Source: Branchiostoma floridae
Lineage: Eukaryota; Chordata; Leptocardii; Amphioxiformes; Branchiostomatidae
Length of the DNA stretch: 64,000 nt
Reading direction: 5' to 3'
NCBI RefSeq assembly: GCF_000003815.2
Contig: NC_049986.1
Span: 876,864-940,863 of the forward strand
How positions within the stretch are numbered: the stretch's first letter is position 1; each line of letters starts with the position of its first letter. Positions 4,601 to 59,929 of the stretch are shown piece after piece. The notes under the pieces are model-generated. The model did no database searches and was not told the origin of the DNA. It saw only the letters and a program-made list of their open reading frames with translations. The position numbers and the translations under genes are program-made.

Positions 4601-7600
4601 TGACTTGGACGCTTACCTCCTTAGGTTTGAGAGGTTCGCGGCATCAAACAAGTGGCCGGAGGACCAATGGGCGCCAAACTTAAGTGCCCTGTTGTCAGGC
4701 GAGGCCCTCAAAGCATACTCGAGGCTGCCTGGTCACGAAGCTCGGATTTACCGAACCGTCAAGAAAGCCCTCATGGAGAGATACAACTTGACAGAGGATG
4801 GGTTTCGTGAGAAGTTCAGGAACAACAAGCCGGAGGCGGGGGAGAGCCCCCAGCAATTCATTGTTCGGCTCGAGAACTACCTGGAGCGTTGGTTGGAGCT
4901 GTCCGACTCGACAAAGTCATACGAGAGTCTTAAGAACCTGTTTGTGAAGGAGCAATTCATGGACGCATGCCCGCGGGACCTGGCGGTGCACCTCCGGGAG
5001 CGGGGCTCGGCATCGCTGGAGGAGCTGGCCGAGATGGCCAAGCACTTCTTGAATGCTCATCGAAGGGAACTTGGCAAAAAGGAGGAGGAGGAGAAGAATT
5101 CGAAGCCAGCGCAGGGCCGTGGCCGCCCACAGCCTGGGCCCACGAGCGGGGCAGGCACGTGCTACCACTGCGGGGACCCCAGCCACTTTATAAGGGACTG
5201 CCCCATGTTGAAACAGGAGGTCCAGCCCTCGGGGGCTAGTTCCTTCTTTGGCGAGATGAAGACCGGATCTCCACCGACTGCGTTCATCGTCAGGGGCCAA
5301 GTGGATGGAACGGCGCTCCCCTTGCTGTTAGACACCGGCAGTACACATACGCTGATCCGAGAGAGCCTGGTAGACGCCAGAAAAGTCAGGCTTGACAACC
5401 AAGGCGGGATAACTTGCATTCATGGGGAAGAAAGAAAGCACCCCAGCGCTCGGGTGGAGATCCGGGTCGGGCATAGGAGCTACAGGGTAAATGCAAAAGT
5501 GATCCCAAACCTGCCGCGCCCTGCAATCGTCGGACGAGATGTTCCCCATCTGGCTGAACTGGTAGAGCTGTGTGCGTCCGGGAAGCAGGAGCCATCCGTG
5601 ACTCCAACAGCTGAAACGCGGGAGTTCAATCGGAAGCCCAGAACCGCGTGCGGCTGGGAGAAGGTTTCCACTGGTAATGGGCCAGTATCCGGTCGCCATG
5701 GTGGCAAAAGTCGCGGCTTTGACAGGCAGGACCGGAGCTACGGCGGAGACCAAGGATTCAAGTCGAGTGTTCGTGGCTACAATGGCCGTGGCAGGTCCTA
5801 TGGGGGAGGTGAGCGTGACTTGGGCTCGCGTTATGGGGACGCCCACAGAAGGGGTCTTGCGGCAAGGCCAAAGCTTCGGTTGGCGGCACGTACCATACCT
5901 GTTGAGAGCCCTCCGCCCTTGTCACACGGGAACTCACGGAGAGATATATACGGGGACGCAAAACCTGTAGACACAGCCGCGAGGGAGCGTGAAATCGAGG
6001 AGAAGCTGGCACAACAGAAGATGTGGCGGGAAGAGAGAGAGCTTCTTCAGAGCTGGTGTCTGCAGCCCTGTATCGTGGAGTGAACTCGGACTGATGAACT
6101 GACGATTTATTAGTTTAGCGATATGTAACAAAGTTCGGCAATGTGTAACCTTTGTTTTCAATTAGTTCCATTTATCGACGTGGTAGCTATTATTGGTTTG
6201 TTAAGTAAGTTTCTAGTGAAGGTTAACTGTATCGTTATTCTAATAGAGTTGGCGACTAGATTTGTGATTGAAATGGTTTCAATCAAGGGAAAAAGGGAGG
6301 ATATGTGACGGGGTCATCTAGAATGATTTGAGCCGGCCCGCAGATTTCTAAAGATAGAGCCCTAAGTAGGTCAGTGGCCAGTGGAGACGGAGACTCCCTG
6401 GGAGACAGACGTGATCTCAGATGCTCTCATAGTTCTAGTCATTGTTGTACGTAGGTTTAGGAAGCAGATTAAAAGGAGTTCCCCTCCAGTTACGCGTTGG
6501 AGTCTTGGACTGAGTCGGTTCCCTGACACCCCGGAAAATCTAAAATGGCCGCCGCATCTGGAAATGAATCTATTAGCAACTTAGTGCGAGAAACGGTCAT
6601 CTCCCTTATCTTGTTGTGTAGCATTGTAGATGTAGATGTGTCATCGTGCTTGCTACATACAACATTGACATTGTCTCCTAATTACTGAGTGAGCAAATTT
6701 AAGGTTCAACCATCTCACAATACCAGCCTGTGTATTATCCTGTAGAGTCACAAATAAAAGGACAGAAGATGCCATCGTTAGCGAAGCGGCAACCGACAAC
6801 ATCCATACTGAAAAGGAGTACCTCGAACACCGTGAAACAAACGCACATGGCGGCCACGCGGCGGCCACTGGTTCAAAGCCACCGTGCAAGATGAAGAAAA
6901 GTATTGCATTTCTAAAGGTGAGACAAATTGTATGCACTTATGTGTAAAGCTTTAACTTTACCATTCTCATAACCAATTATATACCTTTCAAACCGTCTCA
7001 CTGGTTCCAAAGAGATGCTTGAAAAATATCGTTTCGTAGCCGATTAGACCACCCTGTACATGATTAGTCCAGTATCATAGAGTAATAGCTTGAAGTGACC
7101 CGATCATTTAAGGTCCAAGTGGGACATCATGTTTCTAGGGCTCTTTATGCAAATTTATGCAAATTAGCAGTCCATTATGCCCCATTTGAGACATACTAGT
7201 CCAAATAACATCGAACTTAGTGAAAGTAACGAGCAACACGCCAACAGGAGAATTTTAATTTTCTGATCCCTGGAAGTGCCTAGCTTGTTTCTATGGCAAT
7301 CATTGCTAAAGGAAAAGACTGCCAAAACGTCCAAAGTAACAGGAAGGCCAATAGTTTTATACAGCCATTAACGTATGTTTAATTCATTCATTCGTGCAGC
7401 AGTTGTTATACTTTATAATGGTATAGCTAGAAAAAAATAGCTTAATTGAGAAGCCATGGACATACAATTGTTTTGGTGTACTGAAACTGTACATTTTTGT
7501 CCAGGTGCACAAGGCAGGGTCTGAAACAACAGCCTGTATTCTGAAGAGATTCGGCTACGAACACGGACTGAACTTCGTACTTCCAAAGTGAGAACTAACT

Positions 7601-10600
7601 TCTTCCTTTCGATTCAAACCTTCTGTTTTCTCACAACAATTTCTCTCTTTATGTCTTTTGCATCTTTTTAATAGTATGTAAAAGATATTTGCGTAACATT
7701 GGCCAACTTTAAACAATGAGAAACCCTTGTACAAACTTCAGATTGACGATAATATTCCATTTTCGATTCGAAAAAGCACCGTTACTGATCAAACTCATAC
7801 TTATATCATTAATTTTGAAAGAATATCAAGAACAAGTTCCTAAAATATGCGTCTGGGCTTCATCTAGAAAAATATGACTTTTCAATCAAACACACACCTC
7901 CCATTAGATATACCGGAATTCGATATACCTGACACACATTTAAAAAAAATTGTACTTGAAGTCCACACCAAATAATCTAACGACGGCGTGCGAGGAGAAT
8001 TAGGAACTTTTCCCATTATAATTTCTGCTAGAATTCAGCTGGCAGAGTTTAGTAAACTTACCTAAGTACTCTCTGCTTCCTTCTTCATGCCTACGCACGG
8101 TCTCCAACGGCGCTAGGCTAGCTAGTTGGAGACCGTGCGTAGGAGGATGTCGGCATTAGGTCCATTTGGAATTTTCGCCCGAATATGGCACGAATTTTGC
8201 AAATTCTACATTCCGGCTGGTTCTGCTTTATTCCTGCTGATTAGGTTTCAGTGTGAAGGCCCTATTAAAGATGACACTTGTTAATTCCAGGAAATGTGGC
8301 AATTCGAAGTTGGGATTCCCTGGAGACATAACAGACGCCAAACTGATGAAGCAGAACGTGGATGAGTACAACATACTGGTACATCACACTGTGTACGACA
8401 GGGTCAAGTTACACAAGCTCATGGCGCCGGATACACAGTTCATCGCCATTCTCCGGGAGCCGCTCAGTCATTTCAAGTCATTGTTCTTCTACATCGACAT
8501 GTATGTGTCAGCTGATTAATCTCCAAGCAGATCTTGTGTGGCATAAGACAGTATCATAAACTGGGGAAGGGGTTTAGCCGGCAGAGGAGTAAATTGGCCA
8601 TGCGTTTGTCCCAGATACTGGCTCGGAAAGGTTGTAAGACGATAATCCCGGCCAATATTCACGTTGGAGGGAATTATAAGTGGGCACTAGGAGGAGCAGA
8701 AATACGTTGCTGAAAAGATCGCCCCACGCAGTGCCTTTGAGTTTTTTCCGTTCTACTGCTGGTCTTTGCGTGGCCAATTTACTCCTCTGCCGGCGAAACT
8801 CCTTCACCAGCTTATGATACTGTATTGCGCAAGATCTGCTTGGAGATTATCAGCTGATGGCTTGTTCGCCCTGTTTACCGATACCATGGCCCCACCCTCA
8901 TCCGTCAAAATGTAAAAACACAAAGGAAAGAATTGGCTATATTTTCGGTTTAAATTCTAGGTTGGAACTGTCCATTGGAATGAGGGAGGTGTAGTGAAAT
9001 GTGCCGCATTTTCTCCCGTGCAAATGTATATAGCCCTATCTTGTTTCTGATGACAATTTTTCTTGATGGCATTTCATCAAGAAAAAGCACATTATGGTCT
9101 ACGAAATATATACGAGATAACCATCCAGTACTTTTTTGCTTGATTTGAACCTTTGTTTGTAATTCTCACGTTGTTGTGGTCTCCTTTTTTTTTATTTTAC
9201 AGTGTAAGACATAATAGGCTGGTACTCACAGCTAGGTCCACATTTGGTCGGTCGAAGAAGCACAAAAGCGCCTAGATGGCTATTCAGAAGAGACACACGT
9301 AAAATAAAGTCGAACGCCACTGGAAAAAAAACTTTGTACATTGCCCGATGCGATGCTCTGCAATGGCTGATTTTAACTATGGTTTATCTATAAAGTGCTT
9401 ACCAACAAGCTTTCGATCAGTCCTCTGATCCATGTCAAATTGAAATGACCAAAAACCTAAGTCACACATCCATATAGAATCACCGGGACACTCTGTGGAT
9501 TTCGACAAGGTGAAGATACTTGCAATTGATTCCGAGCATGATTACTTTGTCAGGGGGGGGGGGGGGGTGCACCTTTGACCCTTTGCTGACGTCACACTTC
9601 CGTTCCGGATGTGTGACTTAGGTTTTGGGTCATTTCAGCTTGAGAAGGATCAGAGGACTGATCGAAAGCTTGTTGGTAAGCGCTTTATTTTGTTCACGGA
9701 TATTTAGTCTTGAAATTGTAACATAATGGTGGTTATGCTTTTTTTTGTTGCTACATTTTCTAGGGACAAAAAGATTGGCTTAGAGGATGAGGAGAACCCA
9801 CTGGGCAGATTTCTGGACAACCCATGGCGTTATGAGAGATCGATGAGAGAGAACATGCGCAGCGGGTCATTGACCAAGAACCTCCAGTCTTTTGTCTTAG
9901 GTAGGTTTGAATTTACCGCTAATGTTTTAGACCAAGAACCTCCGGTCTTTTGTCGGTTTGAATTTACCGCTAATGTTTTAGACCAAGAACCTCCGGTCTT
10001 TTGTCTTAGGTAGGTTTGAATTTACCGCTAATGTTTTAGACCAAGAACCTCCAGTCTTTTGTCTTAGGTAGGTTTGAATTTACCGCTAATGTTTTAGACC
10101 AAGAACCTCCAGTCTTTTGTCTTAGGTAGGTTTGAATTTACCGCTAATGTTTTAGACCAAGAACCTCCAGTCTTTTGTCTTAGGTAGGTTTGAATTTACC
10201 GCTAATGTTTTAGATTGCCAGGCGCATTACAAAGTGCAATTCGGTGTGCAGGCGGAATACCAATAGAAGAAGTGTATGTCCTGCTGATGCCGTATATATA
10301 CAGGATACACAGATATGATGCCTGTATGTGGGTCCAGTATCTTTATGGGTTTGGGGTAGGGGCCAGGGTACCGGTACAGAAAATTCAGGTCCAGGTCCGG
10401 TTCAGGTCCAAAGGATCAGGTCCAGGTCCGGACCTGAACCTGGACCTGATGCAGTATGACTCATACCAATGGTCCATTCCACTACAAAGAAATCTGTTTG
10501 GTGGAGTATTAGACTTACACTGGCGTTTTAAAATCCTACGACGCTAACTGCACCTGTACGATTGGCTGTAAAACTTGGTACAAATTACTATAAACTCTAC

Positions 10601-17852: not shown

Positions 17853-20800
17853 CTATAAGCGCGTTATCTCATAATTTTCACAAACGTCCATCGTGTCTGA
17901 CTTGTCGACGCTAGGCTGGGCTCCATTAACGGACACTCGGCGAACGTTCTCGTCCCCAAGGCACAACAAGATGGCGGCTATCAGTCCCCCTAGGACGGGC
18001 GCGCATCCGGCCACGATGAACGACATGTTGTAGTTTTCAGTGGCGTCGTAAAGTTTCCCTGAAATACAAACCGATGTTATTGACACAGTCTACAATAAAA
18101 AGAATTGCGTACTGCAGACATCACATTTAATGCCAATGGACGAAAAGAAATTGGCTGGAAAATTTACAAAGAACATTGTTTACGTTATACATGTTGGGAC
18201 CCATTGTTGCTATCCAAAAGCAGGGCAGATTGACCAGCGTGTCACATTGAATAAGCAAGCCAGTCTTAAGTTGAAATAGAATAAATAGATAAAGCTCAAC
18301 TTATGCATAGTAATTAAGCCGTTACCTCATTGGACTGCACCAAATTGCGCTAACGCGAATTCGTACCAATTTTCCCTTAAATGCCACATTTCGAGTTTCT
18401 ACACAATACAACTTTACTAAGAATTGTAATGTGGCCTAAAAACAGTGTACAATGATTAAAGGTTTATTTGCGCCATTTAGCCAGTTTCTAATATTTTTAG
18501 TTTTCAGAAATTCGTACTTCCGGTGCCATATTTGGGAGCCGATGGGCAGTTTGCGCCACTTTATGAATGCTTTTTGCAATTTGACGCAGTCCAGTGCGAT
18601 ATCGACATCCTCATCCCTTACCTGCGATTGGAGGTGCTCCTATTATTGAAACGCTCATCAGCAAAGTCATCAGCCCCATTCCATCGGAAAGTCTTGTAGG
18701 ACCAACGAGATCCGCTAGGAGCGTCATTGAGAGTGTCAGACCGGCTCCTACCAGAAGTCCTATAGTGATGCAGTAGACAGCCAACGCGGGGTAAGTCTTT
18801 GCAAGGGGTGACAAAAGACAAGAGATGCCAGTTGCTAACACGAGAAGTATGTACCAATGGAGATGACGAAATTTTCTATTCGTCGGAAGAATTCCCGACA
18901 GCAGTCGACCAATCAGGTCGCCTATAGAGATCATGGAAACGAGGAACGCGGACTGATATTGCTCGATCCCGAGATGCCTTGCGCGCGGAGTGATATGAAC
19001 GACGGGAATGAACAGACCGAATCCCAAGAACAACATCTGAGCAGTTATGAAGCAAACTAGCGAGGGATTGGTTAGCAAAGTCTTGAATTCAGCTAGCGTT
19101 GTGCGCCCATGACTAGAAGGGTGATCTGGCCGTCTCTTTTTATTGGAAAGTTGGAGGTCTTCTGTATTCCCCCTTTCTTCATTGTTTTGGATGACGCCCT
19201 TTGGTTGGTCCAACTGGATGTCAGAGAGGTCTGGAGAGAAAGCTTCGTTAGTGCACGCTTGGTTTTTCTCGGCCTTTGCTTCTAGTGATGGCGACAATGA
19301 TTCGGATTTAGTTGGCAGGTCGTCTATGTTCTCCTGTTGGTCATTGTTTTCAATGGGAGTCGTCGGTTGGTCCAGTTGGATGTCACTGTCTGAAGAGAAA
19401 GCTTCGTTAGTGAACGCTTGGATTTCCTTGGCCTTTGCTACTGGTGATGTCGACAAAGTTTCAGATTTAGGTGGTAGGTCGTGTATATTTTCTAATTGGA
19501 CATTGTTTTGGATGAAGGCCACCGGTTGGTCCAGTTGAATATCACTGGGCTCTGAAGAGAAAGCTTCGTTAACGTAGGCATGGAATGTCTTAGCTTCTGT
19601 ATTTGCTGGTGATGACAGTGATTCGGATTCATTCAGCGGCATGGCCAGATGGATCGGTCTCAACAAGGCCGCGAAAGCTGTGATGTTGAGCATGACTCCG
19701 GCAGCGATCAGGAACGACCCTCTCCACCCGTACTCCTCTATCAGGTACGTGAAGATGAGGGGGAACACGATGTTACCCACGCCGACACCCGAGAAGGCGA
19801 TACCGTTAGCGATGGCCCGCTTCTTATCGAAGTATTTCCCCACCAGACTTAAGCTCGGGAACATAGCTAGGGACGACCCTAAACCTATAGAGAAACAAAG
19901 ATACGTATTAAAATTCACAACAACGTCCTGTGCAGAGTTTCAACAACATCAAACAGGCTAGGCACTTAGCACATTCACCGAAGTTTAAAGGCAATATACA
20001 TCGCCTGACGATCAAAATACTTTCTACAAACAGCATTGTGTACAATTATTATTAAACCAGAATGAATGGCAGTATGTGTTGTACAGATGAATGTTGAAGT
20101 TAGGGACAGTAGTCATAGGTTTTTGCCATATGAATATATGTGTTTCGGAAACAACGCAGAAAACGAAAATTTGTTCACGCACCAACCAACACGCCTACAG
20201 TGATGTACAGATGGACTATACTGGTTGAGAATGACGTCAGAATGCATCCTGTTGCCGCCAGCACTCCGCCCACCATCGCCACCGGTCTGAAGCCGAACGT
20301 CGCGCTTAACATGACACCAAGTAGAGCTAAGACGGTAGGTATAAAAGAAATCTGAAACCATTGAGTTGTTCAAGATCTATACTCTTGTTCCCGAAAAAGC
20401 ACTCAATTTCAACCTTCGTCATCGAATGTGACCTATCATGGTGAATAATGGATCGTTTTTTCTGAAGTGGGCTGACGTATTGGTTAGAAATCTTTGAGTA
20501 GACTTCCTATATATATATAGGAACTGTAATATTACAGTTTATGTGTTATATGTATTCTGTTAATCTTGGCTTAACATTGATAGACGCAACATATTTTGCT
20601 AATTATGTTTCGGTCCTAGGATAGGATACTTTTTTGGCAATCGCATGTATCTGACTGCAAGTAAGTACAGTAGGTTAGTATAATGATAGATCTTTGACGT
20701 CGTGAAAATTGTTGTTTCTTACTTCCTCCAAAAGTGAGTCCCAGACAAACGGAAATGATCCATGACGTGGCTGCAGCTGATTGGTCAAACTGCGTCGTGA

Positions 20801-20924
20801 ACTCTTCGAAAAACACGCCGAATGATCGCATGACTCCCAAGCTGCAGGCTCCGATCATGAAGACGGCTCCAACCACAGCCCATCCCCACCCTCCATCTAA
20901 GGGTCTGGTGTAACGTACCGGCAT
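17853..20924 (-). CDS. MCT-A: SLC16-type monocarboxylate transporter with repeat-expanded central loop, 604 aa
   Basis: Minus-strand exons 20723-20924, 20183-20326, 18622-19884, 17853-18058; all junctions are phase 1. A 12-helix MFS carrier of the SLC16 family. Signature 1 DGGWGW is at 10-15 and signature 2 [12 protein letters not shown] at 132-143. The intramembrane acid/base pair D438-R442 (SIGDLIGR) matches the Asp-x3-Arg pair of MCT1 helix 8; where MCT1 has the helix-1 lysine, this family has arginine (VMRSFGVFF). The cytosolic loop between helices 6 and 7 (about 196-385) is expanded by three roughly 54-residue repeats. The C terminus ITRL fits a class I PDZ ligand. The start codon sits right behind a TTACAG acceptor, so a non-coding upstream exon is expected. 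Substrate unknown. Confidence 0.9.
19138..19570 (-). repeat. Three tandem repeats inside MCT-A exon 3
   Basis: A unit of 159-162 bp encodes NEAFSS..SDIQLDQP...I.NN....ENI.DLP.KSE.LS and starts at residues 221, 275 and 328; the third is diverged at its end. MCT-B, -C and -D lack it: their loops have different sequence. The repeats are acidic and hydrophilic, and stay in frame. Confidence 0.88.
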
Positions 20925-21150
20925 CTGTAATCAAGTGTTAGACCACATTAACCACAGCCCATCCCCACCCTCCATCTAAGGGTCTGGTGTAACGTACCGG
21001 CATCTGTAATAATCAAGTGTTAGACCACATTAACCACAGCCCATCCCCACCCTCCATCTAAGGGCCTGGTGTAACGTACCGGCATCTGTAATAATCAAGT
21101 GTTTAAGACCACATTAACCACAGCCCATCCCACCCTCCATCTAAAGGCTC
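20869..21150 (-). repeat. Array of the MCT-A start exon boundary (79-82 bp unit)
   Basis: Each unit carries, on the minus strand, a TTACAG acceptor, the ATG and the first 54 or so coding bases ([18 protein letters not shown]), then a short linker. Start codons lie at 20922-20924 (the real exon), 21001-21003 and 21083-21085, with a fourth, partial unit ending near 21147. A start at an upstream copy would give a peptide of about 21 codons closed by TAA. Confidence 0.9.
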
Positions 21151-22012
21151 TTTTGACCCCCCCCCCCTTCGTAATTTCAAAAAGGCTTGGGTTACGATCA
21201 CCAAATTTGGAGGGGATGATGTACTAGTGAAGTTTTATATTTTCTGTAATTTTGGTATCGTTATGACGTAATATGACGTAATTATGACGTCATAGTGTCC
21301 TATTTTGGGCTTAAATCGTCAAAATATGAAATTTCCGCTATACTTAAATGTATTGAACAAAACGATGACAATAAAGGTTATCTTATTGGTGTCTAAGTCT
21401 GCCAAGTCTTTTGATGCCAATGACGATGACATTGACGTCTATATGACGTCAGAAAATGACGTCATTTGTCCGCCATCTTGGATCGACAAGCTTGAATTTT
21501 CTAAAATACGATTTTTTCCACATATAACCCCAAAACCCAATGGAAGTGGACTAAAAAGGTTCAAATGATTGTGTTTTGTAAGAAAATAAAAGATTTTGAC
21601 GGAATTTGAGTAAAAATAACATGTACATGTATTTATCGTTGAAAATGGCATTGTCCGCCATCTTGGATTTTGACCCATGACGTCATCAAATTAGCATAAA
21701 TTATGAATATTTAATTAGAAATGTAACTTAAAATTACACAGGATGTTAATGATATCAATAAACAAGTTTGATCTAGCTATAAAACCATGAAATCCCATAA
21801 TTCAAACTGAAATTAGTAAATTTGGGAAAATATGCCTGTCAGAAACCCGTTACCATGGCAACACGAAAAATCACAAACTAAATTTTTTCGCAGAATTGTT
21901 GCCAACAATATTTTAGGAAAAGTCACCAAGTTTCGTAGTCCTAGCACACGTCGTTCGCCAGTTATACGACGTCAAAGTTGACGCGGGCACTTTTAGCCCC
22001 CCCCCCCCCCGG
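21150..22012. repeat. CRE-rich repeat element, copy 1
   Basis: Bounded by GACCCCCCCCCCCTTCG at the left and CACTTTTAGCCCCCCCCC at the right. It holds four full TGACGTCA palindromes and three TGACGT half or variant sites between 21255 and 21685, plus two CCGCCATCTTGGAT motifs. An almost unchanged copy lies at 28190-29042 within the segmental duplication. Non-coding; class unknown, possibly an old interspersed repeat. Confidence 0.6.
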
Positions 22013-22433
22013 TCTGGATAGGGTTAAACCTGACCATCAGTTCTATTCTCGATAAAATGAGTACGTTGTGTTTTGATACCTGACGTTCTCTCATACACGA
22101 GACCTTCTGCATTACGTTATCATCCGAAATGGCGAGTGAAACCCCGTACAACACTCCAACTTGAGATCAATCCACCGCCACGAATCCATGGAATCTGATC
22201 CTTATGACATCACAAAGCAGCGGGATCGATTACCTATCACGCTTTATGTATAGGTAAGTTATTCAGGGTTTTTACAAACTGCTAATACTCAGTACTAGAC
22301 AGCTTTCAACATGCAAATGCTTCGTAGAGGCAGGGGGCGATGGCAAAACTGTTCTATACTAAACACCTACAAGTTTATGGTCTTCTGTTTGCTGTCTAAA
22401 GTCGCTCGCTGTATGAATAAACATGCATTTCTG

Positions 22434-22533
22434 NNNNNNNNNNNNNNNNNNNNNNNNNNNNNNNNNNNNNNNNNNNNNNNNNNNNNNNNNNNNNNNNNNN
22501 NNNNNNNNNNNNNNNNNNNNNNNNNNNNNNNNN
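22434..22533. other. Assembly gap of 100 N
   Basis: The flanks (CATGCATTTCTG and CAATTCCTTAAACGGG) occur in the duplicate copy near 29450-29530, separated by 48 bp, so the 100 N are a placeholder size. Confidence 0.95.
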
Positions 22534-24151: not shown

Positions 24152-24485
24152 TAACCTGGAATCCAGTCTAGTTGTGGCACGGCCTACCGTAGTTAGTATA
24201 GACTCTCTACGGGGTCAGTGCAGCTCTAAGCCGCCGGTGTAATCATTCACACCCGGTAGCATTTTCCCCGGTAGGATTTTGCCCAGTGGGAGTGAATTAA
24301 TAGGCCACAACTAGACTAACTGCTGGCCGGCAATTAACTCCCACTGGGCCAAGTCTAACCGCGTGAAAATCCTACCGGGTGTGAATGATTACCCCGGCGG
24401 CTGAGAGCTACACTGGCCCCGTAGAGAGCCTAAACTAACTACGGTAACGTTAGGCCGAGCCAGTAGTAGACTCGATTCCAGGTTA
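24152..24485. mobile_element. Fold-back element with 9-bp target duplication, absent from the duplicate copy
   Basis: 334 bp, almost wholly two inverted arms of about 150 bp starting TAACCTGGAATC. It is flanked by GGATGCCAG at 24143-24151 and 24486-24494. The duplicate segment has a single GGATGCCAG near 31107 and no insert. The 9-bp duplication and long TIRs fit a Mutator-like MITE. Confidence 0.9.
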
Positions 24486-25004: not shown

Positions 25005-25602
25005 GCATTTTGCGACTTGCAGTCGCAAAATGCCTTCTGGCCAGTGTAGTCGCCGTTGTGATGTTGTGATGTTGTGATGTTGAGATGAACGGACCTGTTC
25101 AATCCATGCCAAACATTTCTATACCTGTTAAAACAGGCATTTTTTCAACATGTTCGCACTAGCGCAGTGGTAAAGTTTACGCATTCTAAACCAATGCACC
25201 CGGTTCGAATCCGAGGAAATAGATTTTTTTTTCTTTTTTACATCCATTAAAATACTCATTTTTACATCCATTTGGCCACACCAATTTATTTCTTTGGTTA
25301 ACGGATTCGCCGCTTCGTTTTTTTGCCGAATAGAAATAAAAAATTAAAAAAAAAACTTAAAAATGCCCCGCAACAGAGCTCACTCAAAAACAGGCAATGT
25401 GTAGTGAAATTTGCTGCAGTTCACGCAAATTTTAACAGGTGGCGTCTAGATCTGCTGCAGTTCAGGCACATATGTGAATCTCTCCATGCGCCAATATCAG
25501 GTTTAGTTACTCTGTTCTATTTATATGACATTCTAATAACTAGAAAAAAAAAGTTCACACACGCAAACATTGGCAAAATGCCAGCTTTTTTAAAAGCACT
25601 TG
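25005..25602. mobile_element. Block present behind MCT-B but missing behind MCT-C, with hairpin and tRNA-like unit
   Basis: At the equivalent place near 31625 the flanks AAATACATTTTTTT and TTCGTAGAATCTGATC meet directly, so this roughly 600-bp block is an insertion here or a deletion there. It starts with a perfect 13-bp hairpin (GCATTTTGCGACT, TGC loop, 25005-25033). A GTTGTGAT microrepeat follows, then a pol III-type tRNA-like sequence and A-rich/T-rich stretches. Confidence 0.6.
25150..25235 (+). pseudogene. tRNA-like (SINE head or tRNA pseudogene)
   Basis: An A-box-like TAGCGCAGTGGTAAAG and a canonical B box GGTTCGAATCC at normal spacing, an anticodon-like stem GCATT/AATGC, then a long T run as pol III terminator. 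The acceptor ends do not pair, so it is not a functional tRNA. Confidence 0.6.
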
Positions 25603-25708: not shown

Positions 25709-27963
25709 TTATACTGATGTTTCGATCACGAACTTTGAAATCTCTTTATCGTTTGACTTGACGACATTTGGAGGTTCTCCGTTGGCGGGATCGGTAACCG
25801 CTGAATAACTCTCCCTCCCAGACACCTGGCGAACGCTCTCGTCCCCAAGGCACAACAAGATGGCGGCTATCAGTCCCCCTAGGACGGGCGCGCATCCGGC
25901 CACGATGAACGACATGTAGTAGTTTTCAGTGGCGTCGTAAAGTTTCCCTGAAATACAGACCGATTTGCAAATATTTTGACAATCTCTAATAATGAGCAGC
26001 CAATTGCCTACCACTGACACTTGTATTACTATTACCATCCAACCTAAAAGCCTACAAAACGGTTGGCATTGCCATTTTGGACACATCTACTTCGTTAAAA
26101 CCAAGATACTCCATTGGGAAACGTGTATCACTTTGTCACATTCAATCAGAAACTGTCCATATATATCAAGTAGATTAGTCTTATGGTAATAAATTTGCTT
26201 TTACCTGCAATTGGAGGTGCAGCCAGAATTGAAACGCTCATCAGCAATGTCACCAGTCCCACTGCTTCAGAGAGTCTTGTAATACCGACTAGATCCGCCA
26301 GGATGGTCAGTGCCCATTGTCAAACTAGCCCCTACTAGAATCCCTAGCACCATACAATAGATAGCCAGCGCTGGGTAAGTCTTTACAAGGAGTGACAGTA
26401 GAGAAGAGATGCCAGCCATTGATAGAAAAAGTATGTACCAATGCAGATGTAGAAATTTCCGACACGTGGGAAGAAATCCCGACAGAAACCGACCAATCAG
26501 GTCGCCTACAGAGATCAGGGAAACCAGGAACGCTGATTGGTATTGTTCTATCCCGAGATGCTTTGCGCGCTGTGCGATGTGCACGACGGGAATGAAAAAG
26601 CCAAACCCTAACAAGCAGGTGTGTGCAGTTATGAAACAAGCTAGCCGACGATTGGTCAACAGAGACTTGAGTTCAGGCAGCATTGTCCGGCAATGACAAC
26701 AGGAGCGGCCTGCTTTAGAAGTGTCAGTCGACTGATCTTGATGGGGCTCTGGGAATGACATTGTATTGGTGTACGTTTGCGTTTCCACGAGCTTAGCTGC
26801 TTGGTCGGTGAAACCTCCTTGATCTAATGACAACGATTTCTGTCCTTCATACAGATGGATCGGTCTCAACAAGGCCGCGAAAGCTGTGATGTTGAGCATG
26901 ACTCCGGCAGCGATCAGGAACGACCCTCTCCACCCGTACTCCTCTATCAGGTACGTGAAGACGGGAGGGAACACCATATTACCTACACTAGCGCCAGACA
27001 CGGCGATACCGTTAGCGATGGCCCGCCTCTTGTTGAAGTATTTCCCCACCAAACTTAAGCTCGTAAATGTAGCAAGGGACGACCCTATACCTGAAGAAAA
27101 ATAACGATATATCATTTACAACACCGAGAGAAAGAATTTCTGCGTGAGTTTTCGTCAACAAGACAATAACACGCACATATACAGAACATAGTCAAGATGT
27201 TCACGCACCAACCAACACGCCTACAGTGATGTACAGGTGGACTATACTGGTTGAGAATGACGTCAGAATGCAGCCAGTCGCCGCCAGGACTCCGCCCACC
27301 ATCGCCACCGGTCTGAAGCCGAACGTCGCGCTTAACATGACGCCAAGTAGAGCTAAAACGGTAGGTAAAAAAAGAAAATCAATACATTTGAAACCATTGA
27401 GTTGTTCAAGATCTATACTCTTAAGCTTGTTCCCGAAAAAGCACTCAATTTCACTTCGTCATCGAATGTGACCTACTCATGGTGAATGATGGATTAGTTT
27501 TTCTGAAGTGGGCTGACGTATTGATTAGAAGTCTTTGAGTAGACTTCCTACATATATAGAAACTGTAATATTACAGTATATGTGTTACATAGATTCTGTT
27601 CATCTTGGCTGAACATTGACAGACGCACCACATTTTGCTAATTATGTTTCGGTCCTAGGATAGGATACTTTTTTGGCAATCGCATGTATCTGACTGCAAG
27701 TAAGTACAGTAGGTTAGTATAATAATAGATCTTTGACGTCGTGAAAATTGTTGTTTCTTACTTCCTCCAAAAGTGAGTCCCAGACAAACGGAAATGATCC
27801 ATGACGTGGCTGCAGCTGATTGGTCAAACTGCGTGGTGAACTCTTCGAAAAACACGCCGAATGATCGAATGACTCCCAAGCTGCAGGCTCCGATCATGAA
27901 GACGGCTCCAACCACAGCCCATCCCCACCCTCCATCTAAGGGCCTGGTGTAACGTACCGGCAT
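25709..27963 (-). pseudogene. MCT-B: SLC16-type transporter with a +1 frameshift in exon 3 (489-aa equivalent)
   Basis: Minus-strand exons 27762-27963, 27209-27352, 26205-27090, 25709-25947, with the same borders as MCT-A. Signature DGGWGW, KYFNKRRAIANG and the GDLIGR pair are present, and the C terminus ETSV is a class I PDZ-type ligand. Compared with MCT-C, one extra C in the plus-strand run TGCCCATT (26311-26318) shifts the frame in a helix near residue 385 and leads to an early stop at 26267. The downstream frame is intact. Exon 3 is 886 bp where 885 would keep phase. It is either a young pseudogene or a base-call error. Exon 1 and upstream match MCT-A; exon 3 to exon 4 match MCT-C. Confidence 0.85.
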
Positions 27964-28190
27964 CTGTAATAATCAAGTGTCAGACCACATTAACCACAGC
28001 CCATCCCCACCCTCCATCTAAGGGCCTGGTGTAACGTACCGGCATCTGAAATCAAGTGTTAGACCACATTAACCACAGCCCATCCCCACCCTCCGTCTAA
28101 GGGCCTGGTGTAACGTACCGGCATCTGTAATAATCAAGTGTTACCACATTAACCACAGCCCATCCCACCCTCCATCTAAAGGCTCTTTTG
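27908..28190 (-). repeat. Array of the MCT-B start exon boundary
   Basis: Same unit as at MCT-A: minus-strand start codons at 27961-27963 (real exon), 28043-28045 and 28122-28124, plus a truncated unit that runs into the C-rich edge of the next repeat. Confidence 0.9.
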
Positions 28191-29042
28191 ACCCCCCCCC
28201 TTCGTAATTTCAAAAAGGCTTGGGTTACGATCACCAAATTTGGAGGGGATGATGTACTAGTAAAGTTTTATATTTTCTGTAATTTTGGTATCGTTATGAC
28301 GTAATATGACGTAATTATGACGTCATAATGTCATATTTTGGGCTTAAATCGTCAAAATATGAAATTTCCGCTATACTTAAATGTATTGAACAAAACGATG
28401 ACAATAAAGGTTATCTTATTGGTGTCTAAGTCTGCCAAGTCTTTTGTTGCCAATGACGATGACATTGACATCTATATGACGTCAGAAAATGACGTCATTT
28501 GTCCGCCATCTTGGATCGACAAGCTTGAATTTTCTAAAATACGATTTTTTCCACATATAACCCCAAAACCCAATGGAAGTGGACTAAAAAGGTTCAAATG
28601 ATTGTGTTTTGTAAGAAAATAAAAGATTTTGACGGAATTTGAGTAAAAATAACATGTACATGTATTTATCGTTGAAAATGGCATTGTCCGCCATCTTGGA
28701 TTTTGACCCATGACGTCATCAAATTAGCATAAATTATGAATATCTAATTAGAAATGTAACTTAAAATTACACAGGATGTTAATGATATCAATAAACAAGT
28801 TTGATCTAGCTATAAAACCATGAAATCCCATAATTCAAACTGAAATTAGTAAATTTGGGAAAATATGCCTGTCAGAAACCCGTTACCATGGCAACACGAA
28901 AAATCACAAACTAAATTTTTTTTCGCAGAATTGTTGCCAACAATATTTTAGGAAAAGTCACCAAGTTTCGTAGTCCTAGCACACGTCGTTCGCCAGTTAT
29001 ACGACGTCAAAGTTGACGCGGGCACTTTTAGCCCCCCCCCCC
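28190..29042. repeat. CRE-rich repeat element, copy 2
   Basis: Near-identical to 21150-22012 and part of the same segmental duplication. The C runs differ in length. The same four TGACGTCA palindromes are kept. Confidence 0.6.
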
Positions 29043-30467
29043 GGTCTGGATAGGGTTAAACCTGACCATCAGTTCTATTCTCGATAAAATGAGTACGTTG
29101 TGTTTTGATACCTGACGTTCTCTCATACATGAGACCTTCTGCATTACGTTATCATCCGAAATGGCGAGTGAAACCCCGTACAACACTTTAACTTGAGATC
29201 AATCCACCGCCACGAATCCATGGAATCTAATCCGTATGACATCGCAAAGGAGCGGGATCGATTACCAATCACGCTTTATGTATAGTTAAGTTATTCAGGG
29301 TTTTTACAAACTGCTAATACTCAGTGAGACAGCTTTCATCATGCAAATGCTTCGTAGAGGCAGGGGGCGATGACAAACTGTTCTATACTAAACACCTACA
29401 AGTTTATGGTCTTCTGTTTGCTGTCTAAAGTCGCTCGCTGTATGAATTAAACATGGCATTTCTGGTTACCAGACCGTGACACGTCAAAAGAAGTGTGCTT
29501 GAGAAACAACAACAATTCCTTAAACGGGAAGCGTGCCTTGTTTGCTCACTATAGCGGTACCACTTAAGGTCACTTAACACTTCAACCGACCTTATCCGAG
29601 GCTATTGGGCCTATAATCTAATTCAACATAAGGCTACCACAATCATTATTTGTGCCCATATCATTTTTGTATTAGGCTAAAACATAAAGACGATAGATGC
29701 CATAAGTCTTTCCAGACTGAGGATGTTATACTGACCCCCACCCCAGATCAAAATGGCGAAAGAGCTAGCTTTTAAAGATCGAGCACCTTGCATTCGAGAC
29801 AGAAAACGTTACAGTCCACAGAGAACTACAATGAAAGATACTTGTGTGGTATGTGATAACTTATCAACAAATGTTGATATTTCCAGTCTATTTCCTGAAT
29901 ATACAGACCTGCCTTGGTCGGAATTGCCAGCCAGGTAGTTCAAGCAACTAATTGATCGTGAATATAGTTCTCAAATCAGGTGCAGTTTCAACATTATGTT
30001 TGAATTTGGACAGCGAAAGAAAATCCAACCATGATTTCACTTTGACATGTCTACATACCTCAATGTACGGTGGGTCTCACAGTAGGTAGCCAGTCTCCAG
30101 CCTTGGGCGATGTGCACTAGTTCAACCAGTTCAAGATGGGTCAAAGGGCGAGAAGAACATCTTTAGGTCTTTAGAAGGATTTGGTAAAGTAATACACTAC
30201 AACATCCTCTTCGTGGACGTAACTTAGAAATGGCAAACACCAGTCTGATGTAGCCAGGGACGACGTAACTTAGCAGGTGTGACATGGACGCATCGACCCA
30301 TTTTGAATAGCTTTGAATCTTTAAAAATGAGAAATCAACGAGTGATCTTAGAACTATTCAGGGGTGCTAAGGAGAGAAGGCAGGACTTCATCAATAATCA
30401 CGTATACTATAAACCTTAACGGGCTTGAAAGAAGAAATGAAAAGGAAACATTTGTTCTGGTCCTTAC

Positions 30468-31728: not shown

Positions 31729-33893
31729 TTATACTGATGTTTCGATCACGAACTTTGAAATTTCTTTATCGTTTGACTTGACGACACTTGGATGGTCTCC
31801 GTTGGCGGGATCGGTAACCGCTGAATAACTCTCCCTCCCAGACACCCGGCGAACGTTCTCGTCCCCAAGGCACAACAAGATGGCGGCTATCAGTCCCCCT
31901 AGCACGGGCGCGCATCCGGCCACGATGAACGACATGTTGTAGTTTTCAGTGGCGTCGTAAAGTTTCCCTGAAATACAAACCAATTTGCACATATCGTTGA
32001 CAATCTCTACAAGGAGCAGCCACTTGCCTACTACTGACACGTGTATTACTATTACCATCCAATGGGCTAAATCCAACCTAAAAGCCTACAAAACGGTTGG
32101 CATTGCCATTTTTGACACATCTACTTCGTTGAAACCAAGATACTCCATTGGGAAACATGTATCACTTTGTCACATTTAATCAGAAACTATTCATATATGT
32201 TACGTGCAAAGTGTTGAAGTAGATGAGTCTTATGGTAATAAATTTGCTTTTACCTGCAACTGGAGGTGCAGCAAGAATTGAGACGCTCATCAGTAATGTC
32301 ACCAGTCCCACTGCTTCAGAGAGTCTTGCAATACCGACTAGATCCGCCAGGATGGTCAGTGCCATTGTCAGACTAGCCCCTACTAGAATCCCTAGCACCA
32401 TGCAATAGATAGCCAGCGCTGGGTAAGTTTTTGCAAGGAGTGACAGTAGAGAAGAGATACCAGCCATTGATAGAAAAAGTATGTACCAATGCAGATGTAG
32501 AAATTTCCCACATGTGGGAAGAAATCCTGACAGAAACCGACCAATCAGGTCGCCTACAGAGATCAGGGAAACCAGGAACGCTGATTGGTACTGATCGATC
32601 CCAAGATGCCTTGCGCGCTGTGCGATATATGCACGACGGGAATGAAGAAGCCGAACCCTAACAAGCAGGTGTGTGCAGTTATAAAACAAGCTAGCCGACG
32701 ATTGGTCAACAGAGTCTTGAGTTCAGACAGCATTGTCCGGCAATGACAACAGGAGCGGCCTGCTTTAGAAGTGTCAGTCGACTGATCTCGATGGGGCTCT
32801 GAGAATGACATTGTTTTTGTGTACGTTTGCGTTTCCACGAGCTTAGCTGCTTGGTCGATGAAACCTCCTTGGTCTAATGACAACGATTTCTGTACTTCAT
32901 ACAGATGGATCGGTCTCAACAAGGCCGCGAAAGCTGTGATGTTGAGCATGACTCCGGCAGCGATCAGGAAGGACCCTCTCCACCCGTACTCCTCTATCAG
33001 GTACGTGAAGATGAGGGGAAACACCACATTACCTACACTAGCGCCAGACACGGCGATACCGTTAGCGATGGCCCGCCTCTTGTTGAAGTATTTCCCCACC
33101 AAACTTAAGCTCGTAAATGTAGCAAGGGACGAACCTAAACCTGAAGAAAATAACGATATATCATTTACAACACCGAAAGAAAGAATTTCTGCGTGAGTTT
33201 TCGTCAACAAGACAATAACACGCACATATACAGAACATAGTCAAGATGTTCACGCACCAACCAACACGCCTACAGTGATGTACAGATGGACTATGCTGGT
33301 TGAGAATGACGCCAGAATACACCCTGTCGCCGCCAGGACTCCGCCCACCATCGCCACCGGTCTGAAGCCGAACGTCGCGCTTAACATGACGCCAAGCAGA
33401 GCTAAAAAATAGGCAAAAAGCAATTTGATACATTTGAATCCCAAGAGTTCTTGTTAAAGGTCTAAACTCTACCCCGTGCCAACAAAGTATTCAACGATTT
33501 GACCTTTCTCATGTTTACAGACCCGGTGATGAATATATCAGTTCTTCTGACGAGGGAACTGGTTAACATCTGCATGTGTTACATCTTGATATATGGACTG
33601 CACATGTGTACATTTTGGTGAGACGTTAAGTGAGTACAGAAAAGATCATGAAAAGGATATGATTCTTTGTCCTCGTGAAAATTTCTCTTACTTCCTCCAA
33701 AAGTGAGTCCCAGACAAACGGAAATGGCCCACGACGTGGCTGTAGCTGATTGGTCAAACTGCGTCGTGAACTCTTCGAAAAACACGCCGAATGATCGAAT
33801 GACTCCCAAGCTGCAGGCTCCGATCATGAAGACGGCTCCAACCACAGCCCATCCCCACCCTCCATCTAAGGGCCTGGTGTAACGTACCGGCAT
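31729..33893 (-). pseudogene. MCT-C: SLC16-type transporter with a +2 frameshift in exon 3 (489-aa equivalent)
   Basis: Minus-strand exons 33692-33893, 33258-33401, 32254-33140, 31729-31967. Same architecture as MCT-B; DGGWGW, KYFNKRRAIANG, GDLIGR and terminal ETSV are all present. Relative to MCT-B an extra AT in the plus-strand stretch GCGATATATGC (32623-32632) shifts the frame just after FIPVVHI at the start of the helix 7-8 loop, giving a stop near 32563; the remaining frame is intact and splices in phase to exon 4. Exon 3 is 887 bp where 885 would be in phase. Pseudogene, polymorphic allele or assembly error are all possible. Confidence 0.85.
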
Positions 33894-34455
33894 CTGTAAT
33901 AATCAAGTGTCAGACCACATTAACCACAGCCCATCCCCACCCTCCATCTAAGGGCCTGGTGTAACGTACCGGCATCTGTAATCAAGTGTTAGACCACATT
34001 AACCACAGCCCATCCCCACCCTCCGTCTAAGGGCCTGGTGTAACGTACCGGCATCTGTAATAATCAAGTGTTAGACCACATTAACCACAGCCCATCCCCA
34101 CCCTCCATCTACGGGCCTGGTGTAACGTACCGGCATCTGAAATCAAGTGTTAGACCACATTAACCACAGCCCATCTCCACCCTCCATCTAAGGGCCTGGT
34201 GTAACGTACCGGCATCTGTAATCAAGTGTTAGACCACATTAACCACAGCCCATCCCCACCCTCCATCTAAGGGCCTGGTGTAACGTCCCGGCATCTGTAA
34301 TCATCAAGTGGTCGACCACATTAACAGCAGATCATCACCATCCTTCTTATAAGGGGTTGTCTCACCATATCCTCCTCGGTACGGGGCATTTAGCCTTCAT
34401 TAATCACAGCCCATCCCCACCCTCCATCTAAGGGTGTGGTGTAACGTATCTGTAT
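33838..34455 (-). repeat. Longest array of the start exon boundary (MCT-C)
   Basis: Six units with an intact minus-strand acceptor and ATG (start codons ending at 33893, 33975, 34054, 34136, 34215 and 34294). A break follows, then a degenerate unit at about 34398-34455 in which the start codon is lost. The unit is 79-82 bp, depending on the presence of an extra AAT. Confidence 0.9.
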
Positions 34456-35400
34456 GTAATAACAAGTGTATCATGTTTAACGCCGAAGTGACAATCTTCT
34501 TTCAATCATGATTATATCTGCACAATTGTTTTGGTCAAAACCGGTTTCGTACGGAAGGAGGCGAGGTCAAAACAGCTCGTAGTAGAAACATATACCAGTG
34601 AATGAGCCCCTGCCTTTAAGTTAGTTTACTGTCTCATCCGCTGTTCGAGAGTCCCATCATACAGACATACATGTTTTAGAAGGAAATGACGTGATACAAG
34701 CGCAAACCAAAAACTATCTTCGTGAAACGTGGGGTTTACTTGTCATTTGATTGTCTAATGAGACTGAACTAAAATTGGACTGCACTCCTTTTTCACGCGG
34801 CTTTCATAGGAAGTTTTCAAATCTATACATGTCAGACGGCCACTGTAGCGTTAATTATGTACATGCATGACTTTATCCTTGAATGAAATATCCCACAAAA
34901 ACGTTGCCAATTTTAAATCTTACCTTTTGTTGGGGACAAACCAAACGAACCAGTCCATTGCCCGGGGCGATGTGTCTGCTTCGTGCAGGTCAACCAGTTT
35001 GGAATAGGCCGAAGGTTACCACACGGCCGGTGGATCGCTTTGATTTCTTCAAAAGGAGCTGGTAAATGTTGAACTTGAAATGCATTTAGGAAATGTACGT
35101 AGAGAAGGCGAGCTTGCGTCAATTACTTTGTACACTCTGAAGCTAATTAGTGTTTGTTTGGAAGGCATCTTGTTTCATTATCTTACCCACAATCACTGAA
35201 TCGACTCGTCCATTCCTTGACGTCATGACCTTGTCATCAGTGCAGTAATAATGTTGGGGTCTCAAATCAATGTTGCGGTTGGTATTCTGGCTTTATCCAG
35301 TGTATAGTGTGTTCGTGACTTCTCAAATCTAATGCGAATGCTTAAGGTGAAACGCCGGATTTAGATTTTTTTATTGGGTGGAGAATTTCGAGCAATCGTC
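34456..35400. other. MCT-C upstream region
   Basis: No coding exon. On the minus strand, 34930-35060 shares a patchy block (AACTGGTTGA..T.GTGC) with the region upstream of MCT-A near 23140. A second block near 35187-35275 contains GGACGAGTCGATTC followed by donor GG|GTAAGA (exon edge 35187). Both look like remnants of, or real, 5' UTR exons. Confidence 0.4.
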
Positions 35401-35825
35401 TCAAAATCATGCCGTGGGGAATGACGCAGTTTCAGCTCGATGTTAATCCTCTAGAGCAAAGAGTCTGCCAATTTTGTACCTCAAACATGGTAGAAGATGA
35501 AGTGCACTTCACTGTTGATTGCGATATGTATGCGAATGATAGAAATACTCTATTCAGTTATATAGAAAGTAGTTCCCTCATTTTAGACACATGAGTAGCA
35601 CTGACAAGTTTATATTTCTCATGCGTTTTGACAAACCGACAATAGCGAAACCCATACAGTCCTACATTTTCACTATTACCAAGAAGCGAGAAGAAGCCGA
35701 ACTTTTGTGTTAGACTAGATTTATGACACTTTTATGTATGTATATATCCTGACTTGTTGTGACCTGTACTTAGCCCGGTTGGGCAAAATTGTACAATAAA
35801 GGTCTTCATTCACTTTCATTCGTTA
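35400..35825 (+). mobile_element. 3' fragment of a non-LTR retrotransposon
   Basis: Encodes QRVCQFCTSNMVEDEVHFT.DC, the Cys/His motif typical of the C-terminal end of non-LTR retrotransposon ORF2. A frame break follows, then SSTDKFIFLMRF and KKREEAELLC with a stop, then a 3' tail ending TACAATAAAGGTCTTCATTCA. 5'-truncated and inactive. Same family as 2215-2610. Confidence 0.75.
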
Positions 35826-37036
35826 ATCTTCTTTTACATGTACTAATCTACTAATCTAAGTGACTCGTGCTATCTGCAAGAGTGTTACGGTTTCTGGATA
35901 AGTGGTGTAGGTCTGGGCCCCTAGCAGCTTTCCTTGGAACTGCAGTGGCTTATGTGGGTCTTCTTGCTATAAACAACATGTGGGGAGTGGGGCTGGAATA
36001 TGGGAATACTAGTATGTGCCAGAAGTGAGCAGTTGAACAAGAGTTCCCTGGTATCACCTCAGACTGAAGTTTTCTTTATCTCTGTTTGTTCGCAGTTCAA
36101 AATCATTGCCATCAATTACAGTTTAAAATATACCCACGACCAATGTAAATGTTATAGCCATTTGACGAATCTATATTATATGAGACCTCCGATCTCTAAT
36201 GTTAAAATGCAATCATTACATAACCGTTTAAGTACATATACAGGCTTTCTCGGATAAGACTAAATCTTAGTTGCACTGCTGTTGAGCACACATAAAACAT
36301 CCGTCCAGTAGACAATATGTATATGTAGCTGTTCTGTAATAACGAAAATAACGAATTGAACAAATAGTTTGTGTAGATATTCACAAGATATAATCTTAAA
36401 CCATTTGGCAACAGCATACATGTTTGTGATAACCTCAAGACACAACATGTGCATGTTAAGAATAGAAATAGCTGTAGCCAAAGCATATCTATTAGAAAAT
36501 GTTATCAAATACGTACGAGTACACGTAAACTATTGCTTTTATACGATATTGTGTGATATACTTCTACCTGGATAAGTACGCAACAAAGACAATGTAAACA
36601 GCATATTGCAGTTGGTGTGCTCTGGGGGCACGGTTTGCACATGTATACATGGATTGCTCCTTTTGTTACGACAGTTACCATCAAAGTACATAGTACATAC
36701 TTTTAATTTTTACAGATACATCATTTGTCTTGAGTAGAAAATCAAGTGACAGGGGGAGGGGCATCAGCTCTATGGAACTTGTGTTGACTGAGATATATAA
36801 TCTTTCTTTTAAGCTTTGCTAAAATGTTGTTTTCTTGGCCCCAAAATGTTAATGAAAAGGTCTATGGCATCTCATGATATGGAAAACCTTCCATGCCCCC
36901 CCCCCCCTCCCTTTCAGGAAAATGCATGCTGCAATCAGCAACGGTACCAATGCGTACCAATGAAACAAACGTCAACTGTTGCCTTGTCAGACAAGGCTTT
37001 GATGAAAACATTGGGAGCAAGATTTACAAAAACATG
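35826..37036. other. Spacer between MCT-C upstream region and MCT-D 3' end
   Basis: Low-complexity, AT-rich sequence with a C10 run near 36900. Only spurious short frames; I recognise no gene or named repeat. Confidence 0.4.
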
Positions 37037-39573
37037 TTACACTGATGTTTCGATCACAAACGGCTTCAAAATTTCCTTGTCGTTTGACTTGACGACGCTT
37101 GGATGGTCTCCGTTGGCGGGATCGGTAACCGCCGAATAACTCTCCCTCCCAGACACCCGGCGAACGTTCTCGTCCCCAAGGCACATCAAGATGGCGGCTA
37201 TCAGTCCCCCTAGGACGGGCGCGCATCCGGCCACGATGAACGACATGTTGTATGATTTAGTAGCGTCGTACAGCGCTCCTGTTGGAGAAAGAAGTATACA
37301 GGTTTGATCATTGTTGCGTAGTTCAATATCATCATCATCATCATCTGGGCGTGCTGATGCTCTCGAGTTATATTAGAATTAACGTTGTGTAACTGACTTG
37401 TCTTCAGTGAATTTATTTGCGTTAATATTCGTTGATTCTTGTTATATTACCATTTATTCTATTTGATGTCATTATCGATTGCTGTTATGTTGCATGTATG
37501 TGAGGGGTGTTCCCTAGGTATCTTTGAAAATCGCCAGCCAGGCGACGTGTACCCCTGGAATCCAGGGGCCTGGATGAATAAAGATAAACAAACAAACAAA
37601 CAATATGGTAATAGTGTGCATACCAGCGACAGGTGGTCCACCCAGGATTGCCACGCTCATCAGCAGTGTCATCAGGCCCATGGCGTTGGAAAGCCTTGCA
37701 GGACCAACCAACTCCGCCAGGACTGTGAGTGATATGGACATGCTTGCTCCTCCCAGGATTCCATAGAAGATGCTGTAAGTGGCTAACGTTGCGTACGTGT
37801 TTGCCAGCGGTGACAATAGCGATGTAGTGCCCATGCCCAACATGGACAAGATGTACCAATGGAGAAGACGGAGTCTACGAGATGTCGGGAGAAACCCCGA
37901 CGCTATACGACCAACAACATCTCCTATGGAGATCATCGAGATCAAGAACGCCGCCTGGTACTGCTCGATCCCGAGATACCTTGCGCGCGGGGCCATGTGC
38001 ACGATGGGAATGAAGAACCCGAAGCCGAGAAGGAATACGGAGATTGTCAGACACACGAATGGAATGTAGGCCAAGAGTGACTTCCACTGAGCCAGAATCA
38101 TCTTCCCAGGACTTCTAGGAGTTGGCGTTGCTGACTTCCCGTTTGATACGATTGCAACTTTCATGTCGTCGGTAGGACCAGCCCCCGCTGGTGACCCCAT
38201 TTCAGAATCGTCCCGGGGCAAGCCTCTTTGCTCTGCGCCTGAGGACCCGTTGCGAAGCGTTGGCGGGGCGTTTGCTGGTGCTTGTGCGTCAGTCCCTAGT
38301 GACGGGACAGCCAACTGGATCGGTCTCAACAAGGCCGCGAAAGCTGTGATGTTGAGCATGACTCCGGCAGCGATCAGGAACGACCCTCTCCACCCGTACT
38401 CCTCTATCAGGTACGTGAAGATGAGAGGGAACACGATGTTGCCCACGCTGACACCCGAGAAGGCGATGCCGTTAGCGATGGCCCGCTTCTTGTCGAAGTA
38501 CTTCCCCACCATGCTCATACTTGGGATGAACGCCAGGGACGAACCGAAACCTGGAGAGGACACAGCAGTTTTATTAGTTTTTATCAACACTACAAATATC
38601 ATCTTTGATAACTGGATGTACACGAATGGATTAGTGGTCATAACAGATGCTGATTCCTTTGTAGTTATTTCTGAGACACTACGACACCATCCACCCCCGA
38701 CCAGCACTCTGTCTTTCCCCTCCTCAATCTCAGCTGAAAAGCAAAGTAGACCTACAGATACAAGGTCTCCTCTATGACCAGAGCATGTAGAAACGATGTA
38801 AGAAAAACCCTAGACCTAGGCCTATAACTCACCTGTGAGAACCCCCGTGGTGAGGTACAGGTGAACTATGCTGCCCGCGAATGACGTCAGAATGCACCCA
38901 GTCGCCGCCAGGACTCCGCCCACCATCGCCACCGGTCTGAAGCCGAACATTGTGCCGAACATCCCACCGAAAAACGCTGAAAGGAGGTATTGTTTTAACA
39001 GTCATAAACAGCAGATTCAGTTTTTTATATATGTACTCTGATAGTATTACACTCTTACTCTTAGAATGCCCAGTTGCCGAAAAAGATTGATAAATTGCTT
39101 TTCTTTTTGCGGCAAAATCCTTTTCCTTCCAAATTATTGATCTGATTTGACAATACCTAAGTATCAAAGAAACCGAACCTACAAAGTGAATCCCAATCAA
39201 TCTTATTTATGTACGACGTTCACCATAGTACCATGAAATCAAAGACTTGGACCATCAAATGTTTTTTGTTCTACTAATGTATCTCAAAATTCATTACCCT
39301 TTCTGAAACAAAATAATCAAGTTACCATCAATGAACTGGTGGGGATAGATAGACCTATAAATTCTCCATACCTCCTCCAAATGTTATTGCCATAGCGACG
39401 GAGATGACCCATGACGTGGCAGTTGCCGGTTGGTCGAACTGCGAGGCGAACTCGATGAAGAACACGCCGAAGGACCGGGTGACTCCCATGGTGCATGCGC
39501 AGATGACGAACACCGCCAGCACCACGGCCCAGCCCCATCCTCCATCCAGGGGCTTGGTGTAGCGCACCGTCAT
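37037..39573 (-). CDS. MCT-D: SLC16-type monocarboxylate transporter, intact, 504 aa
   Basis: Minus-strand exons 39372-39573, 38833-38976, 37624-38550, 37037-37278; all phase 1 and GT-AG. Start [15 protein letters not shown] follows a TTTTACAG acceptor by three bases (ATC), so a 5' UTR exon is expected; a donor GTAAGT with exon edge near 42827 is a weak candidate. Signatures DGGWGW and [12 protein letters not shown] are present, with helix-8 pair D326-R330 (GDVVGR). The central loop (about 195-270) is rich in Ala, Pro, Gly and Ser and lacks the MCT-A repeats. C terminus ETSV, a class I PDZ-type ligand. The most diverged of the four, yet exon 4 and part of exon 3 are near-identical in DNA to its neighbours, suggesting gene conversion. 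No start-exon array. Confidence 0.9.
37480..37604 (+). mobile_element. Non-LTR retrotransposon 3' tail in MCT-D intron 3
   Basis: GTGTACCCCTGGAATCCAGGGGCC forms a hairpin, followed by GATGAATAAAGATAAAC and an AAAC microrepeat tail. This is typical of the 3' end of lancelet CR1/L2-like elements. Heavily 5'-truncated. Confidence 0.55.
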
Positions 39574-59866: not shown

Positions 59867-59929
59867 CTTCGCCTTGGACAAACTTGAGAACCAGGTAAAC
59901 TGTTCAGGAAGCCAGGAACTGTCTGGCGT

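Follow-up and report, generated by a model that had tools for sequence, protein, structure and literature searches.

Mirages, minisatellite-like tandem duplications of an exon-intron boundary, are known in lancelets from Adh3, two globin genes (BflGb6 and BflGb9), TnC and PGBD5 (PMC3087553, PMC3902484), the last two having been added by PMC3902484; the available text of the globin study cites the name to the work on Adh3 (PMC3087553). According to the same text, BflGb6 has six and three units in two haplotypes, with 81–100% identity between units, and Adh3 data together with globin RT-PCR suggest that regular splicing is undisturbed by mirages, although the copies could act as cryptic splice sites (PMC3087553). 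Boundary repeats also occur in human genes within segmental duplications, and the accessible part of that study reports RNA-supported alternative splicing for them (PMC2812944).

We describe here tandem arrays in front of three predicted monocarboxylate transporter (MCT) genes in a window of 64,000 nucleotides of Branchiostoma floridae DNA, to which all positions refer. They are likely to constitute a mirage, that is, a minisatellite formed by tandem duplication of an exon-intron boundary and tolerated since. As in the described amphioxus cases, the repeat is minisatellite-like and duplicates such a boundary, and as in BflGb6 the duplicated part joins the 3′ end of an intron to the 5′ part of an exon (PMC3087553). 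The boundary predicted from the sequence takes in the 3′ end of the intron that precedes the ATG, together with the initial 54 nt of the coding exon. Unlike in the amphioxus mirages, the junction thus lies just before the start codon and each whole copy carries its own ATG, the use of an alternative acceptor would not change the protein, and the array is found at three paralogs, which are likely to exchange sequence with one another. The unit measures 79–82 bp, compared with 150–160 bp in BflGb6, 157 bp in BflGb9 and 10–72 bp in Adh3, as given in the available text (PMC3087553). The human internal tandem repeats are likewise boundary minisatellites, in paralogs that arose by recent duplication and vary in repeat copy number; their units average 30 bp, and a start-codon exon case is not met in the accessible part of that paper (PMC2812944). 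Mirages as a kind are already known, and what sets this one apart is the position of the junction just before a start codon, in three paralogs that probably exchange sequence. Among the papers listed in a literature search of titles and the beginnings of abstracts, none was titled as concerning a lancelet MCT mirage.

Unit structure of the three arrays

Four MCT genes, MCT-A to MCT-D, lie on the minus strand in head-to-tail order. A 193-residue query from the N-terminal half of MCT-A matched solved MCTs (MCT2, 2.6e-38; MCT1, 3.8e-36), a similarity by which the genes are predicted to belong to the SLC16 monocarboxylate transporters. MFS_1 (Pfam) was found in the downstream exon of all four paralogs, while exon 1 of MCT-A, taken by itself (67 aa), gave no Pfam match. 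The large coding exon of MCT-A contains a 159-bp (53-codon) in-frame tandem repeat (19228-19571), which had little or no counterpart in MCT-B and MCT-C on alignment. Exon 3 has its reading frame broken once in MCT-B (26270-27115, near 26315) and once in MCT-C (32183-33240, near 32630), reflecting either decaying genes or draft errors.

The first-pass annotation had placed an array at 20869..21150, with a predicted 3′ splice site, ATG and 18 codons repeated every 79–82 bp. The array is real and the anatomy and spacing are as described, and it is one of three homologous arrays called by TRF, which front MCT-A, MCT-B and MCT-C (Table 1). For array A the call was 82 bp × 3.4 with 96% matches and a score of 489. 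In 20 order-1 Markov resamplings of the whole window no repeat scored above 65, and in 15 of them nothing reached the reporting threshold of 50, which rules out a chance repeat as the origin of this array. At the ATG of MCT-D the TRF listing held no array.

Table 1. Positions of the arrays and associated features in the window.
Feature	Positions	Strand	ATG, authentic; whole extra copies	Basis or remark
58-bp array, Gal3ST region	9872..10214	+		TRF; exon end, AG/GTAGGT and intron start, donor-like
MCT-A first coding exon	20723..20924	-		202 nt, ATG to predicted donor GTAAG
Array A, in front of MCT-A	20871..21148	-	20924; 21003, 21085 (plus-strand coordinates)	TRF, unit listing and ORFs
Flank adjoining array A	21149..22433	.		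97.7% identical counterpart at 28184-29464, adjoining array B
Array B, in front of MCT-B	27910..28183	-	27963; 28045, 28124	TRF and unit listing
Array C, in front of MCT-C	33840..34448	-	33893; 33975, 34054, 34136, 34215, 34294	TRF and unit listing
ATG of MCT-D	39571..39573	-		TTTTACAG ends three nt before the ATG

Read on the minus strand, a whole unit consists of a 25–30 nt intron-like tail ending in TTACAG or TTTCAG, followed by the ATG and codons 1–18, with successive units spaced by 79 or 82 bp. The three arrays hold 16 units: three authentic, nine whole extra copies (two in A, two in B, five in C) and four that are fragmentary or degenerate. The full boundary-spanning structure (intron-like tail, AG and first 54 nt of the predicted coding exon) is therefore present in 12 of the 16 units, that is, in the authentic ones and in 9/13 extra ones; since whole units were chosen by a pattern that includes ATGCCGG, the intactness of AG/ATG in whole copies is partly the result of selection. 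Each whole extra copy opens a 21-codon frame, running on past codon 18 as NVV and then a stop (TAA in seven, TGA in two), while the authentic exon runs on as GAVFMIGACSLG to its predicted donor. Below, whole units are numbered outwards from the authentic one (A0, B0, C0).

Array A contains the authentic codons 1–18 (20871-20924), two whole copies and one distal exonic fragment. The tails of its three ATG-bearing units all end in TTACAG/ATG; TTTCAG occurs in B1 and C3. An equivalent acceptor, an ATG and a 21-codon frame closed by TAA, which the first-pass annotation had assigned to every copy, hold for two of the three extra units and fail for the third and most distal, which has neither acceptor nor ATG. 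The outermost unit of array B is a fragment with the same edge, and the two outermost units of array C are degenerate. Homogenised inner units thus stand beside divergent array edges, as in BflGb6, where the edge units are left out of homogenisation according to the available text (PMC3087553).

Across the 54 exonic sites, none of the 12 whole units has more than one difference from the consensus. These differences comprise two synonymous sites (with the AGA and GAC variants described below) and three amino-acid replacements (L to V, G to R and V to G), each replacement being present in a single copy and all confined to C3, C4 and C5, so that 6/9 whole copies encode the 18 residues of the authentic exon.

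A second repeat seeded on a splice junction had been proposed for the Gal3ST region, and this proved correct: five of the six unit starts of the 58-bp array carry AG/GTAGGT, the exception being the unit from 9930, which has no AG/GT. This repeat lies on the donor side and is of different sequence. The Pfam scan there covered ORFs other than the one that enters the array, and Gal-3-O-sulfotransferase matches fell on three of them. Elsewhere in the window, an ORF at 4038-6083 has SCAN and aspartyl-protease Pfam matches, a zinc knuckle just below the cut-off and an internal Glu/Arg/Lys-rich repeat, and looks like the gag-protease of a retroelement; a 917-codon open frame (stop to stop) at 57299-60049 contains LRR, Roc and COR domains.

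Predicted splice signals and upstream reading frames

TTACAG before the ATG is a predicted acceptor. By-eye counting found CTAAC or CTGAC, which resemble the branch-point consensus, in 9 of the 12 whole units; those without it (A2, B2 and C5) are the outermost whole copy of each array. MCT-D moreover keeps TTTTACAG beside its ATG in an upstream region that by eye is otherwise dissimilar. Both observations argue against the view that the AG is not an acceptor and that transcription starts in or just upstream of the array, the repeats being 5′ UTR or promoter. That view draws on the pyrimidine-poor tails, the closeness of the branch-like motif to the AG and the failure of paralog comparison to locate an upstream noncoding exon, A and B being near-identical over long upstream stretches and C having no match; we think it unlikely. 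Each unit also contains a GTACGT at which a microexon might end; this was considered, and such an exon would be 6 nt long.

C1 and C4 have the same 25-nt tail as A0, letter for letter, and by local sequence the authentic acceptor cannot be told from its copies. Use of an upstream acceptor would lengthen exon 1 from 202 nt to 281–284, 363, 445, 524 or 603 nt. That this would place short upstream ORFs in the mRNA, as had been suggested for array A, follows from the sequence. The further proposal, that one to five such uORFs before the MCT start form a functional switch in which repeat number tunes translation, found no support; it is possible on the sequence, and we regard it as very unlikely. 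In its favour are AG/ATG and a closed 21-codon frame in 9/13 extra units (the pattern used to pick them includes the ATG), the presence of the array at three of four paralogs and the lack of any protein-level penalty, since the protein would be the same whichever of these acceptors was used. However, the copies look recently homogenised, so that intactness would be expected anyway, and MCT-D has no array. In all nine extra copies the frame is closed within the branch-like motif of the unit that follows (GTC TAA C or GTC TGA C); the closed frame would therefore come free with the branch site and need not reflect selection for a uORF stop.

Several features of the frames themselves also tell against such a switch. 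The distance from each stop to the next ATG is 13 or 16 nt, which is too short for efficient re-initiation. Graded re-initiation is thus unlikely: the effect of a uORF should be near all-or-none rather than that of a graded counter, and with little re-initiation a single retained copy should be roughly as repressive as five. In genomic context every array ATG has C at -3, a weak start context. Distal units have degenerated, losing the branch-like motif, the acceptor or the ATG, and an amino-acid change is found in 3/9 whole copies. For the same reason a coding-constrained uORF peptide was rejected, as there was no sign of constraint, although the counts are tiny and the DNA recently homogenised. 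Published mirages are, in the available texts, reported to splice normally (PMC3087553, PMC3902484). On the other hand, the RNA-supported alternative splicing in the accessible part of the human study counts against assuming that the MCT array is silent (PMC2812944).

Array similarity and probable exchange among paralogs

Measured from the ATG of the second copy to the authentic acceptor, the arrays agree at 97–99% of aligned sites (A-B 154/158 and A-C 155/158, each with 6 gap columns, and B-C 160/161 with none). Intron 1, which begins 148 nt downstream of the array, is similar between A and B (360/380 sites), whereas A and C agree at 192/254 sites (76%, with 167 gap columns) and B and C at 201/255 (174 gap columns). 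For the 2,452 nt upstream of array C (34449-36900), BLASTN found nothing similar in the rest of the window (E up to 1e-5), and the flank adjoining array A matched nothing in the window besides its counterpart at array B, hence nothing beside array C. Given the similar arrays, the diverged intron 1 and the unmatched C flank, the array and exon 1 stand out as an island of similarity shared by A and C, which is a direct observation. The flank of array A contains poly-C runs near 21157 and 21998. Further upstream of MCT-A lies a self-complementary stretch of 334 bp (24152-24485, 81% identical to its own reverse complement), without which the corresponding MCT-B region continues, and a further stretch of ~600 bp (25005-25599) is present in A only.

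The simplest reading of this comparison is that the arrays were probably homogenised by exchange among the paralogs. Among the authentic exons A0 alone departs from the consensus, synonymously, with an AGA codon that is present in its neighbour A1 and absent from the other 10 whole units; because A0 and A1 alone have this codon in common, the authentic coding start itself appears to be involved in the exchange. A GAC variant is confined to B2 and C2, and CTGAC precedes B0 and C0 only. Against exchange, variants common to B and C could be due to descent, constraint on splice signals could contribute to the A-C island, and intron 1 and the upstream flank of C could have been replaced rather than have diverged. 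MCT-B as a whole is mosaic, resembling A from intron 1 upwards and C from around exon 2 as far as its 3′ end. The array was considered as the switch point and rejected, the change from A-like to C-like falling at ~27200-27420, around the intron 1–exon 2 junction.

The differences in copy number between the paralogs, in the one assembly covered, are at most suggestive of length instability, as expected of mirages. When arrays are read from a gapped draft there is also the concern that alleles or repeats were wrongly joined. A run of N (22434-22533) lies near array A, the broken reading frames of exon 3 in B and in C could stem from draft errors, and according to the available text the B. floridae draft had one globin mirage misassembled (PMC3087553). 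The differing copy numbers, private variants and degenerate edge units of C are nevertheless unlike a simple misassembly, and we consider it highly improbable that the arrays are an artefact, while copy number itself may be wrong in the assembly.

A probable tolerated mirage at a start codon

The four of 13 extra units that lack the full anatomy, together with the rival readings of the similarity island, lowered our confidence in the mirage reading very slightly, and it stays high. On this reading, the array would have arisen once in an ancestral MCT gene and been carried along by tandem gene duplications, with unequal exchange and gene conversion altering it later. The innermost acceptor would normally be joined, the copies leaving with the intron and being nearly neutral. 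If an upstream acceptor were used now and then, the same protein would be made, with one to five 21-codon uORFs added and translation lowered. A stronger role can be imagined, in which leaky upstream acceptors add uORFs as a copy-number-dependent translational brake, with array exchange among paralogs resetting the brake and rewriting the coding start in concert; we give this little credence.

The MCT arrays add a start-codon case to the few minisatellites at splice junctions that are described in the papers cited here. With two, two and five whole extra copies in front of MCT-A, MCT-B and MCT-C and none in MCT-D, they also offer a natural series for studying how the spliceosome picks among near-identical acceptors, and how the exchange of an array carries a coding start along with it.
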